Shown here in pieces: positions 4,434-56,382 of a DNA stretch of 64,000 nt. The DNA comes from an uncultured Photobacterium sp. GTDB taxonomy: Bacteria > Pseudomonadota > Gammaproteobacteria > Enterobacterales > Vibrionaceae. The stretch's first letter is position 1; each line of letters opens with the position of its first letter. The translations under genes and the position numbers were made by a program. The stretch is taken from positions 62,001-126,000 of the forward strand of contig NZ_CAMRAN010000003.1 in assembly GCF_947039875.1 (NCBI RefSeq). Direction: 5' to 3'. The notes below the pieces were generated by a model, which saw only the letters and a list, made by a program, of their open reading frames with translations, ran no database searches and had not been told where the DNA came from.

Positions 4434-6155
4434 ATGAAAGGGAATACATGGGGGCTTAGCCGCCAGATTTTCGTCAGTGTATGGTTAATGTGCTGCGGGT
4501 TGCTGACGGTAACCAGCGTTACAGCAGCGCCAGCGAGTGGCATTACTAATCAAGTTCAAGATATTGAATTTCATCGTGATGGTAAAGGTCGAGGCGTATT
4601 AACTGTTAAGTTAAAACAGCCGCAGTCATTGGTTGATATTCGCCGTCAAGGTAAGCAATTACAGCTGGATATTTTTGATACTCAGTTAACCAATGAGCAA
4701 ATACACACTTTAGATGTAATTGATTTTGCTACGGTCGTTAATAGCATTGATACTAGCAATGTGCCTCGTGGGGCGCGGTTTATGTTTAATATGACTGGTG
4801 GTTATGATTACGATTATCGTATTCGAGGCAATAACCTTGAAGTGACGTTAATTAAACGTACTCAAGCTAAAACGGTAACAACGACAAACAAAGGTAATGT
4901 GTCTTACAAAGGCAAACCTATTTCAATTAACTTTCAAGATATTCCCGTACGCAATGTCTTACAGTTAATTGCTGATTACAATGATTTTAACTTGGTGGTT
5001 GCCGATACGGTGAGTGGCAACGTCACTCTTCGCTTAGATAATGTACCATGGCCACAAGTGCTCGATATTATTCTACAAGCGAAAGGGCTAGATAAGCGTA
5101 TTCGTGGTTCGGTGCTATTAGTAGCCCCTAAGGCTGAGCTAGTAGCGAATGAACGCCAAGTGATGGAAACAGCACGTAAGCAGCAAGAACTAGCTAGTTT
5201 ACGTTCTGAACTTATTCAAGTGAACTATGCGAAAGCAACAGACCTTTCAGCGTTATTGAGTGGTTCAAGTGACGGCGTGGGAATGCTGTCAGAACGCGGT
5301 TCTTTGCATGTTGATGAGCGAACTAATGCCTTGATAATTAAAGATACACCTGAAAATATCGCCAGTATTAAAGACATCGTAGTTGCGCTTGATATTCCAG
5401 TCAAACAAGTACAGATTGAAGCGCGTATTGTTACCATTGATGAAGGTAATATTGATGAGCTTGGTGTTCGTTGGGGCGTTTCAAGTATTGATGGTGATAC
5501 CACTATTGGTGGCTCTATTGAAGGTAACCTCGGTAGTTCTGGATTATTAGATGACACTACCGTTGATGATTTCCTTAACGTTAACTTAGGTGCTAGTCAA
5601 AATGGAGCGGCCAGTATTGCATTTCAGGTGGCAAAGTTAGGTAATGTGTTGTTAGATTTAGAGTTATCAGCATTACAGTCAGAACGTAAAGCTGAAATTA
5701 TTTCAAGTCCACGTTTAATGACCACTAACAAAAAAGCGGCTTATATCGAGCAAGGTACCGAAATTCCATATCTTGAAGCATCATCAAGTGGTGCGGTGTC
5801 GGTTGATTTTAAAAAGGCTGTGCTGAGCTTGATGGTAACCCCTCAAATCACCCCCGATAATAAATTGGTATTGGATTTAGAAGTCACGCAAGACAGTAAA
5901 GGTGAAGAAGTGCCAACAGGGGTAGGCACTGCTGTGGCCATTAAAACACAGCGGATTGGTACTCAAGTGTTAGTCAACAATGGTGAAACGGTCGTATTGG
6001 GGGGTATTTATCAAAACCAAGTTAATAATAGTGTCCGTAAAGTGCCTATCCTTGGTGATATTCCCGTACTTGGTGCATTATTTAGACATAAAATGGAAGA
6101 ACTTGGAAAACGTGAATTATTGATTTTTGTGACGCCAAAGATTGTGATGCAATAA
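4434..6155 (+). CDS. pilQ: Type IV pilus secretin PilQ
   Basis: Outer-membrane secretin that forms the pilus (and DNA uptake) channel. The signal peptide runs to about residue 31 (TSVTAAPAS), followed by an AMIN domain (about 40-140), an STN domain (about 165-215, FQDIPVRNVLQLIADYNDFN), a secretin N1-type domain (about 255-325) and the C-terminal secretin domain (about 395-570). The secretin signature is present, ending VPILGDIPVLGALF and LLIFVTPKIV. Length 573 aa fits Vibrio PilQ. It is the last gene of pilMNOPQ; no clear T-tailed terminator follows, only the inverted repeat listed next. Confidence 0.95.
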   Translation: MKGNTWGLSRQIFVSVWLMCCGLLTVTSVTAAPASGITNQVQDIEFHRDGKGRGVLTVKLKQPQSLVDIRRQGKQLQLDIFDTQLTNEQIHTLDVIDFATVVNSIDTSNVPRGARFMFNMTGGYDYDYRIRGNNLEVTLIKRTQAKTVTTTNKGNVSYKGKPISINFQDIPVRNVLQLIADYNDFNLVVADTVSGNVTLRLDNVPWPQVLDIILQAKGLDKRIRGSVLLVAPKAELVANERQVMETARKQQELASLRSELIQVNYAKATDLSALLSGSSDGVGMLSERGSLHVDERTNALIIKDTPENIASIKDIVVALDIPVKQVQIEARIVTIDEGNIDELGVRWGVSSIDGDTTIGGSIEGNLGSSGLLDDTTVDDFLNVNLGASQNGAASIAFQVAKLGNVLLDLELSALQSERKAEIISSPRLMTTNKKAAYIEQGTEIPYLEASSSGAVSVDFKKAVLSLMVTPQITPDNKLVLDLEVTQDSKGEEVPTGVGTAVAIKTQRIGTQVLVNNGETVVLGGIYQNQVNNSVRKVPILGDIPVLGALFRHKMEELGKRELLIFVTPKIVMQ

Positions 6156-41388: not shown

Positions 41389-41422
41389 TTATTATTTGAT
41401 TTCATAGCCTTTTATGGCTATT

Positions 41423-41453
41423 GGCTGGTGGCAAAAATGCCACCGGCCTTTTT
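41423..41453 (+). terminator. rplL-rpoB attenuator
   Basis: GGCTGGTGGCA-AAAA-TGCCACCGGCC followed by TTTTT lies 34 bases after rplL. In E. coli a leaky terminator at this place lets only part of transcription enter rpoBC; the same arrangement is visible here. 165 bases remain before rpoB, with no ORF. Confidence 0.8.
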
Positions 41454-54543: not shown

Positions 54544-54853
54544 ATTTGGTGTTATTTTTTTAGTGTAATTTAGGTTAATTATTATTTGAATTGTAATGAA
54601 TAAATGGTGTTTATGATGTGATAATTAGGCAATGGATATTTTATGTTAAAAAAATGTTGAATTCACTTCAGTTGTTTATGCTAATTTGAAACTTTAAAAG
54701 CAGTGAATGTGACTGCTTGGCGGATAAAGTTTACGCCATTCCACTTATTTTGTTTTGGCTCTTGTAATCGTAGTCCGTTGGCGTTTATAACATAACCATT
54801 GCGTAGCACTTCAGTTACGCCATTCGTGGTCTGTTAGTTAGAAGGAGGCAAAT
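54544..54853 (+). promoter_or_regulatory. brnQ upstream region with repeats and hairpins
   Basis: Non-coding. Contains small hairpins AGCAGT/ACTGCT (near 54700-54718), TGGCG/CGCCA (54719-54739) and GCGTA/TACGC (54806-54825), and a repeated motif TACGCCATTC (54732 and 54822). No ORF longer than the leader peptide is seen. The first ~150 bases after the yjaG terminator are very AT-rich. Confidence 0.45.
54762..54791 (+). promoter_or_regulatory. Candidate brnQ-leader promoter
   Basis: TTGTAA (54762-54767), an 18-base spacer and TATAAC (54786-54791). It would start an mRNA near 54798, about 55 bases before the leader peptide ATG and 280 bases before brnQ. Read by eye. Confidence 0.35.
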
Positions 54854-54970
54854 ATGAAACATTCTACTGTAACCGTTGTTATATCTTGCTTCAGTCCAAC
54901 TATCGTTGCTATTTGCAAATCAATGGCGACTTCGCTCCTCCTGCTCTCTTTGAATCTTATTCAAGGCTGA
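54854..54970 (+). CDS. Putative leader peptide of brnQ (38 aa, Leu/Val/Ile-rich)
   Basis: Too short for the ORF track. The ATG is preceded by GAAGGAGGCAAAT, the strongest Shine-Dalgarno sequence of this region (core AAGGAGG, 6 bases away). The peptide starts MKHSTVTVVISCF and ends SMATSLLLLSLNLIQG. 14 of 38 residues are Leu, Val or Ile. The end has codons CTC-CTC-CTG-CTC-TCT-TTG-AAT-CTT-ATT, with four consecutive Leu. The stop codon lies inside the stem of the downstream hairpin. It is 107 bases upstream of brnQ, a branched-chain amino acid carrier. I infer an attenuation leader; a short secreted peptide is an alternative but there is no cleavage site. Confidence 0.6.
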   Translation: MKHSTVTVVISCFSPTIVAICKSMATSLLLLSLNLIQG

Positions 54971-55009
54971 CAGGCCATACCTATTTTTCTGTCAGCTTGT
55001 GAGCAAGCT
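54962..55009 (+). promoter_or_regulatory. Mutually exclusive hairpins after the brnQ leader peptide
   Basis: Structure 1: CAAGGCTGACAG (54962-54973) pairs with CTGTCAGCTTG (54989-54999), an 11-bp stem with one bulged G and a 15-base loop. Structure 2: AGCTTG (54994-54999) pairs with CAAGCT (55004-55009). They share the same AGCTTG bases, so only one can form. A third complementary CAAGCTG occurs at 55048-55054. Structure 1 overlaps the leader stop codon; a ribosome finishing the peptide would block it, while one stalled at the Leu codons would allow it. No T-tract follows either, so Rho-dependent or translational control is more likely than intrinsic termination. Confidence 0.55.
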
Positions 55010-55077
55010 AGCAGGATCTACTACGTAACATCCCATCTCGCTTTCTCCAAGCTGCAAAGTAATTACCAAGGAATACT

Positions 55078-56382
55078 ATGTTAAGTGCACGTAATATCGC
55101 CGCCTTAGGCTTCATGACTTTCGCCATGTATTTAGGCGCGGGAAATTTAATTTTTCCTCCTTATTTAGGTTACCAAGCTGGAGATAATTTTCTTAGCGGT
55201 ATGGCGGGCTTTTTATTAACAGGTGTTGGCTTACCTGCAATAGCATTGGTGATTGTCGCTTGGGTACGTGGTTCTGATAATTTAACCGCTGCGTTGCCTA
55301 AACCATTAGCAACCGGCTTTTGGGTGATGCTGTTTATTGTTATTGGGCCAGCCTTTATTATTCCTCGGACTATTACCGTTGCTTATCAATTTAGTTTGGC
55401 GCCATTTATTGGTGATAGTGGCTTAATTCCATTTTCAATTGTGTTTTGTTTCGCGGCAATTTTATTTTCGTTATATCCCGGAAAGTTAGTTGATAGCTTA
55501 GGGAAATGGTTAACACCAGTATTGTTGACTATTTTAACGATTATGGCGGTAGTTGCATTGTTGTACCCCTCTGGTGAAGTACATGTTGCTTCTGGACCGT
55601 ATGCGACTGGCGCAATGGCTGAGGGAATGACACAAGGTTACATGACCATGGATGCACTTGGCTCAATTGGTTTTGGGTGGGTTATCTTTAGAGCGATTGA
55701 AGGGATGGGGGTTAAGTGTCCTAAAGCTATCGCAAAATATACTTTTATTGCTGCGATCATGTATGCATCAGCGATGGCATTAGTGTATTTGTCATTGGCG
55801 TATATTGGTGTGACCAGTGCAGACTTAGGCACAGGCTTTGCAAATGGCGGTGAAATATTAACGGCATTTACTAACTTACATTTTGGCGCTTTTGGTACCA
55901 TCATTTTAGGGTCGGTATTGGTGCTAGCTTGTTTGACTACCGCGATTGGTGTGACAACGGCAGGCAGTGAATTTTATAGTCGCAGCTTTAGTAAAGTCAC
56001 TTACTCTAAAAGTGTGTGGGTAATTATGGCGCTATCAGGTCTTATTGCGAATGTTGGTTTAGCACAGTTATTAGAAGTGACCTTACCTGTTGTGGTGGCA
56101 TTACACCCCATTGCGATTGCGTTATTAATGATTGCGCCACTGCGGCACCAATTATCTCAAGCAGCGGTATTGACGGTGGTGGCAACCGCTGCGGTATTTG
56201 GTTGTGTTGATGCTGCTCATATTCTAGGGGTCATGCCAACAGCTGTTGATAATGCGTTAAATGTATATTTACCACTGTATCATTATTATGCTGGTTGGGT
56301 TTTACCAACAGTATTGGTATTGATGCTTGGCTGGATCGTCAGTCGTATGAGTGGTTATAGTTATTGTGTGGATAATAACTGA
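55078..56382 (+). CDS. brnQ: Branched-chain amino acid transport system II carrier protein
   Basis: LIVCS-family cation symporter for Leu, Ile and Val in the inner membrane. About twelve hydrophobic segments; family signature near the start FAMYLGAGNLIFPPYLGYQAG and GKWLTPVLL, GFGWVIFRAIEGMGV. 434 aa (439 in E. coli). RBS CCAAGGAATACT. Preceded by the putative leader peptide and alternative hairpins; followed by a strong terminator, so monocistronic. Confidence 0.95.
   Translation: MLSARNIAALGFMTFAMYLGAGNLIFPPYLGYQAGDNFLSGMAGFLLTGVGLPAIALVIVAWVRGSDNLTAALPKPLATGFWVMLFIVIGPAFIIPRTITVAYQFSLAPFIGDSGLIPFSIVFCFAAILFSLYPGKLVDSLGKWLTPVLLTILTIMAVVALLYPSGEVHVASGPYATGAMAEGMTQGYMTMDALGSIGFGWVIFRAIEGMGVKCPKAIAKYTFIAAIMYASAMALVYLSLAYIGVTSADLGTGFANGGEILTAFTNLHFGAFGTIILGSVLVLACLTTAIGVTTAGSEFYSRSFSKVTYSKSVWVIMALSGLIANVGLAQLLEVTLPVVVALHPIAIALLMIAPLRHQLSQAAVLTVVATAAVFGCVDAAHILGVMPTAVDNALNVYLPLYHYYAGWVLPTVLVLMLGWIVSRMSGYSYCVDNN

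Follow-up and report, generated by a model that had tools for sequence, protein, structure and literature searches.

A putative leucine-sensing leader peptide with alternative RNA folds precedes the transporter gene brnQ in Photobacterium and some Vibrio

The window analysed here, a stretch of 64,000 nucleotides from an uncultured Photobacterium sp. (NCBI RefSeq GCF_947039875.1, contig NZ_CAMRAN010000003.1, positions 62,001 to 126,000 of the forward strand), carries the brnQ gene on its plus strand at 55078..56382. The gene encodes a branched-chain amino acid:cation symporter (Pfam PF05525, E 1.5e-113; TIGR00796 livcs, E 1.1e-102), is preceded by the Shine-Dalgarno (SD) sequence AAGGA at 55068..55072 (plus strand) and has yjaG (DUF416) on one side and a CNNM/CBS protein on the other. 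Upstream on the same strand lies a 38-codon upstream open reading frame (uORF) at 54854..54970, encoding MKHSTVTVVISCFSPTIVAICKSMATSLLLLSLNLIQG followed by a stop, with the SD AAGGAGG at 54842..54848; the brnQ ATG (55078) is 224 bases beyond the uORF start. A first-pass annotation, made from the letters of this DNA, had described this ORF, its SD and the 224-base gap, all of which are present, and had proposed that the ORF encodes a leader peptide through which the position of the ribosome selects between hairpins ahead of brnQ, a proposal that stands up to the sequence-based comparisons of start, Leu run and pairing given below. A probable plus-strand promoter, consisting of TTGTAA (54762-54767), an 18-nt spacer and TATAAC (54786-54791), was placed at 54762..54791 on the basis of conservation: a promoter-like sequence is conserved upstream of the uORF, and TTG and TTTATAAC are retained among the Photobacterium leaders. 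A strict sigma-70 scan did not report the proposed promoter at 54762-54791. Transcription is predicted to start at about 54798, that is, before the uORF. Upstream of the TTG...TATAAC sequence, a CACTTATTTTG element (window 54740-54800) is also conserved in most Photobacterium leaders, and is possibly a regulator site or an UP element.

The distribution of the leader was investigated by following the gene and the RNA separately. BrnQ orthologues at least 68% identical were found in 50 of the 198 family genomes searched, and the association between leader and gene is, by this count, far beyond chance because the leader lies directly upstream of the close orthologue in 50/50. A covariance model yielded 41 strong matches in Photobacterium and 24 in Vibrio, one per genome, across 331 family genomes, and no new carriers among 395 genomes drawn across the order. 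The additional strong matches of the model that were fetched precede brnQ in every case (15/15). The leader stands directly before the same brnQ orthologue in 66 genomes (41 Photobacterium, 24 Vibrio and Shewanella marina), and at no other place in them. Searching with a DNA pattern of the leader end recovered 38 stretches in named genomes of Photobacterium, Vibrio and Shewanella marina; the Vibrio carriers found in this way include harveyi, owensii, jasicida, rotiferianus and diabolicus, and in Shewanella marina the leader again precedes brnQ. The leader was absent from the more distant BrnQ paralogues of the same genome. Among these are two tandem BrnQ-like genes (contig C6, 10757-12025 and 12657-13937) that are 42-43% identical to the BrnQ of the window and are not closely preceded by any similar SD-bearing, Leu-rich uORF. 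As candidates for a leader elsewhere, four weak model matches (22.6-24.3 bits; genomes G090, G105, G038 and G039) were considered and rejected, as they lie in unrelated contexts. In Shewanella marina JCM 15074 (L103, around 5600-5950), the leader occurs together with a Photobacterium-like brnQ, which suggests that gene and switch were acquired as one unit by horizontal transfer.

Comparison of the leader across these genomes revealed that its reading frame is preserved. An automatic scoring looked for an ATG or GTG with an SD, 15 codons or more upstream, from which the Leu frame stays open, and found one in 64 of the 66 loci. The remaining two (G020 and G311) also carry the ORF and were mis-anchored by the scoring script, so that essentially all 66 homologues have an SD and an ATG/GTG start in frame with the Leu codons. 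The two alternative frames are open by the same scoring at only 3/66 and 2/66 loci. In the N-terminal part of the peptide both sequence and length are free to vary (29-54 codons across homologues), and the end of the uORF is nearly fixed as LLLLSLxLI(R/Q)(G/S)-stop. As judged from these alignments, the Leu frame is selectively kept open across the 66 loci, which leaves a short, translatable reading frame between the probable promoter and brnQ.

The conserved end contains the Leu run CTC CTC CTG CTC TCT TTG AAT CTT ATT (54935..54961, plus strand), in which the LLLLSLxLI motif is accompanied by CTC enrichment. In the 35 long ORFs of the window that served as background, no Leu codon is used less often than CTC (3.7% of Leu codons); in the leader ends its share is 50%, and two CTC positions are conserved there in 44/44 and 43/44 sequences. 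Clustered rare control codons are the usual design for sensing an amino-acid shortage, and this cluster of Leu control codons is what would be expected of a leader peptide sensing charged tRNA-Leu. The signal had initially been given as Leu (BCAA) supply; in the refined reading it is leucine, mainly through the CTC codons. The role of the regulated gene, the import of leucine, isoleucine and valine, matches the amino acid of these codons. In Vibrio leaders (e.g., L109 and L157), the uORF SD AGGATC can pair without mismatch with the GATCCT that opens the Leu run, and the SD/Leu-run duplex reaches about -9 kcal/mol versus -5 to -6 kcal/mol for shuffles. This predicted pairing could couple uORF initiation to the position of the ribosome. 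It was rejected as a general feature of the leader, being notable in Vibrio but not general in Photobacterium.

The RNA following the Leu run can fold in more than one way. The first-pass annotation had pointed to an 11-bp stem, CAA(G)GCTGACAG at 54962-54973 with CTGTCAGCTTG at 54989-54999, which has a single bulged G and carries the TGA stop in the 5' arm, and to two alternative partners of its 3' arm, 55004-55009 (CAAGCT) and 55048-55054 (CAAGCTG). The stem is present, both partners are exact, and the idea of alternative pairing is retained, while its form has been refined from one stem with two partners to a choice between helices P1+P3 and helix P2. The match at 55048-55054 had been only part of the picture, as it is the end of the much longer helix P3, and a hairpin inside the Leu codons, P0, had been overlooked. 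Unguided RNAalifold on 44 sequences recovers P0, P1 and P3. All of these helices are on the plus strand. P0 joins 54948-54954 with 54960-54966, with 99% of cells paired over the 44 sequences and three pairs showing double changes, a covariation reached by 1 of 1000 shuffles (15 representatives). In the P. angustum-like clade, where the uORF ends as LLMLSLKRI-stop, the TAG stop comes two codons earlier and the same change (CTA/TAG) leaves P0 paired. P1 joins arm 1 (54967-54973, holding the TGA) with arm 2 (54989-54995); it is almost invariant (99.4% of cells paired), with one-sided changes only. P2, which excludes both P1 and P3, joins arm 2 (54989-54998) with arm 3 (55005-55014), with 97.2% of cells paired; its changes are one-sided only and G-U tolerant, with zero double compensatory changes, as would be expected for an arm that has to fit several partners, and arm 2 is nearly fixed.

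Strong compensatory change was found in P3 as well as in P0. P3 pairs 54995-55017 (the end of arm 2, the loop and arm 3) with arm 4 at 55031-55052. Ten of its pairs show double changes, and its covariation was reached by 0 of 1000 shuffles (15 representatives). Shuffling weakens the arm 3:arm 4 duplexes (mean z of the real ones, -2.9), and in about 40/44 sequences the duplex with the native arm 4 is stronger than those with arm 4 from other species. The covariation score of the combined structure lies above all 500 shuffles and all slid controls. Taken together, the comparisons show P1+P3 and P2 as predicted, mutually exclusive folds that share arms, are conserved and are tied to brnQ. The alignment of brnQ upstream regions suggested with the original proposal thus places a conserved start, Leu run and compensatory pairing across Photobacterium and Vibrio.

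Since the helices overlap or adjoin the coding end and P0 constrains the last seven sense codons, the region might be mainly a structured RNA, such as a protein- or sRNA-binding element, with the Leu-rich ORF as a by-product of structural constraint. We consider this highly improbable: in essentially all 66 loci the frame is kept from an SD and start that lie outside the helices, about 90 nt upstream, the alternative frames score only 3 and 2, and Leu codons 1-4, which lie upstream of P0, are still CTC-rich Leu codons. A translated, Leu-sensing leader that controls brnQ is, by comparison, very probable.

The base composition between the helices and brnQ provides further insight into the likely output. 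The original proposal had noted the absence of a T-tract, which is confirmed in the sequence: no terminator-like site was found in the leader, and no T-tract follows P2 or P3 in the 44 homologues, with the exception of one weak TTTT. A classical intrinsic terminator attenuator was accordingly rejected, as the leader holds no terminator hairpin with a U-tract. Instead, the spacer and arm 4 form a C-rich, G-poor, rut-like segment (55015..55052, plus strand), which in the structure model is open in the P2 state, with arm 4 paired in the P3 state. Over the 44 homologues the spacer contains 38.5% C and 6.7% G. Ranked against same-locus windows, the C-minus-G excess falls within the top 0.4% for the window species (median, top 0.6%). 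The missing T-tract had been taken to point to Rho-dependent or translational control; this expectation is borne out, and the C-rich, G-poor segment favours Rho. Among the outputs considered, Leu-dependent exposure of a Rho site has the best support because such a segment coincides with the lack of a T-tract, and we give Rho as the main output about an even chance, its function at this segment being suggested by composition.

The spacing of these elements was compared with the dimensions of a ribosome, whose footprint reaches about 12-15 nt beyond the A site. The distance from the fourth Leu codon to arm 1 is 23 nt in 44/44 sequences, and the stop lies 19-23 nt from the start of arm 2 (27-29 nt in one clade). 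As modelled, this spacing suits a ribosome on the Leu run permitting P1+P3 versus a ribosome at the stop permitting P2. In the proposed mechanism, the leader peptide would be translated from 54854. When charged tRNA-Leu is short, the ribosome would stall on the CTC run and leave arm 1 free, P1 would form, and P3 would follow once arm 4 has been transcribed, hiding arm 4 and permitting brnQ expression. When leucine is plentiful, the ribosome would reach the stop and cover arm 1 but not arm 2, so that P2 would form and the C-rich segment up to brnQ would stay open; the open segment would let Rho end transcription early, possibly aided by poor brnQ initiation. The net effect would be that leucine shortage raises BrnQ. 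As a guess, P0 may pause RNA polymerase and so synchronise it with the first ribosome. With only arm 1 masked, P3 is predicted to be energetically preferred to P2 in several species, and P2 must therefore win kinetically if the model is to hold. The model as a whole, a ribosome-mediated leucine attenuator controlling brnQ, is regarded as probable with good confidence.

The same sensor with the same polarity could act through another output, namely translational attenuation, in which the free arm 4 (CCUCC/UUCC) of the P2 state pairs with the brnQ SD and blocks initiation, and P3 captures arm 4 and frees the SD. In 43/44 sequences the brnQ SD is indeed predicted to be less accessible when P2 forms than when P3 forms (0.15 versus 0.59), and in some clades arm 4 and the SD form a perfect UUCCUC/GAGGAA pairing. 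A precedent exists in the E. coli toiL uORF before topAI, which resembles the brnQ leader in that a stalled ribosome on a uORF changes the structure near the downstream gene, and in the part given to Rho termination, which in toiL follows the repression; toiL differs in sensing antibiotics and in acting by SD occlusion, which is not clearly supported for brnQ (PMC12121999). Controls, however, weaken the case. When spacer and arm 4 are shuffled, the SD is hidden almost as well (mean 0.18 versus 0.14 for the real sequence), and in the window species the real arm 4 hides it less than the shuffled one (0.68 versus 0.52). Duplexes of arm 4 with the SD barely exceed shuffled ones in strength (mean z -0.5), and their pair counts in fixed register reveal no covariation. 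In addition, 35-70 nt have been inserted between arm 4 and the SD in four genomes (G020, G038, G039 and G051; e.g., loci L062, L113 and L067), and since the helices are kept despite these insertions, they argue against a mechanism that needs arm 4 near the SD. SD sequestration by arm 4 was consequently set aside as the output, not being clearly above shuffled controls and being absent in the window species; with translational attenuation held to be possible but doubtful, Leu-dependent Rho-site exposure is ranked first and SD sequestration second.

The direction of the response was also considered. Tryptophan induces tnaAB through TnaC, and by analogy leucine might induce brnQ, with full translation of the uORF leading to a permissive fold and stalling to P1+P3 as the OFF fold. 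The direction is not fixed by sequence, and P3, whose stability is very high in Vibrio (to -26 kcal/mol), sits only about 10-20 nt ahead of the brnQ SD; these points would be compatible with such a reversal. On the other hand, a cluster of rare codons such as these CTC codons is how leaders usually sense a shortage, a transporter of a scarce nutrient would be expected to rise in starvation, and the C-rich segment open in the P2 state favours OFF in that state. Reverse polarity is therefore considered unlikely, and the assignment of starvation to P1+P3 and to the ON state, as suggested by design and physiology, is reasonably likely.

Attenuation by leader peptides is a mechanism known from textbooks for operons of amino-acid synthesis. 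In the leuL (leuABCD) and ilv leaders, an ORF with rare Leu codons is translated and the position of the ribosome picks the hairpin. The brnQ leader is like these in its short ORF with a rare Leu run and its alternative hairpins; it is unlike leuL (Rfam RF00512, Leu_leader) in that a transporter rather than biosynthesis is controlled, no intrinsic terminator is present, the stop codon lies in arm 1, and P3 is formed by arm 3 and the loop with a distal arm. Judged on these features, it shares the tested properties of ribosome-mediated attenuators in general, and it was not filed under the classical terminator type because a terminator hairpin and U-tract are absent. Rfam gave no meaningful match in 54700-55120, and hence no known riboswitch or Rfam element; the NCBIfam leader-peptide families did not match any of the four leader peptides tested. 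RF00512 had no match at the site and weak matches on other contigs; its best match in the genome could not be assigned to a leuA leader, so that this search has no in-genome positive control.

In mechanism, the nearest known systems are Salmonella speF/orf34 and E. coli toiL; in signal, they are the leuL-type leaders and the S. aureus ilv leader, and in target, the T-box-controlled LIVCS transporters. The Salmonella speF leader orf34, which responds to an arginine signal and whose translation is required for expression of the ornithine decarboxylase gene, with RNase G involved, similarly uses consecutive control codons and ribosome pausing to select an RNA structure, and relies on Rho-dependent termination, which at brnQ is inferred; the two differ in pairing arginine with ornithine decarboxylase there versus leucine with a transporter here (PMC6386406). 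The attenuator of the S. aureus ilv operon acts in cis, responds to leucine and has a Leu-rich leader peptide; this operon differs from brnQ in being biosynthetic, in having a putative terminator and in belonging to the Firmicutes (PMC5794164). Also in Firmicutes, transporters of the LIVCS/BrnQ family are under T-box control and regulated by tRNA charging; the transporter family is shared, but in the T-box the tRNA binds the RNA directly, without a leader peptide (PMC2494555).

The original proposal knew of no leader peptide for a brnQ transporter, and the open-access papers searched likewise describe none for brnQ in Vibrionaceae, though subscription papers may do so; nor did the open-access papers searched yield leader-peptide attenuation of any Gram-negative branched-chain amino-acid importer. 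In a study of GcvB in V. alginolyticus, brnQ appears only among the proteins repressed by GcvB, and attenuation is cited for ilvGMEDA of this species (PMC9409037). The combination proposed here, a leucine leader switch on a transporter gene with P1+P3 versus P2, P0 within the control codons, a Rho-site output and no intrinsic terminator, could equally well hold or fail in its full form. It would give one transporter gene a private, strongly conserved Leu sensor lacking a classical terminator and, if true, would place the nutrient-uptake attenuators of Vibrionaceae in a class of their own among leader attenuators. The alignments allow one to ask how ribosome position becomes Rho-dependent or translational control.

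Elsewhere in the window, positions 41392-41449 match the Rfam family P26 (Pseudomonas sRNA P26) with a score above the gathering cut-off.
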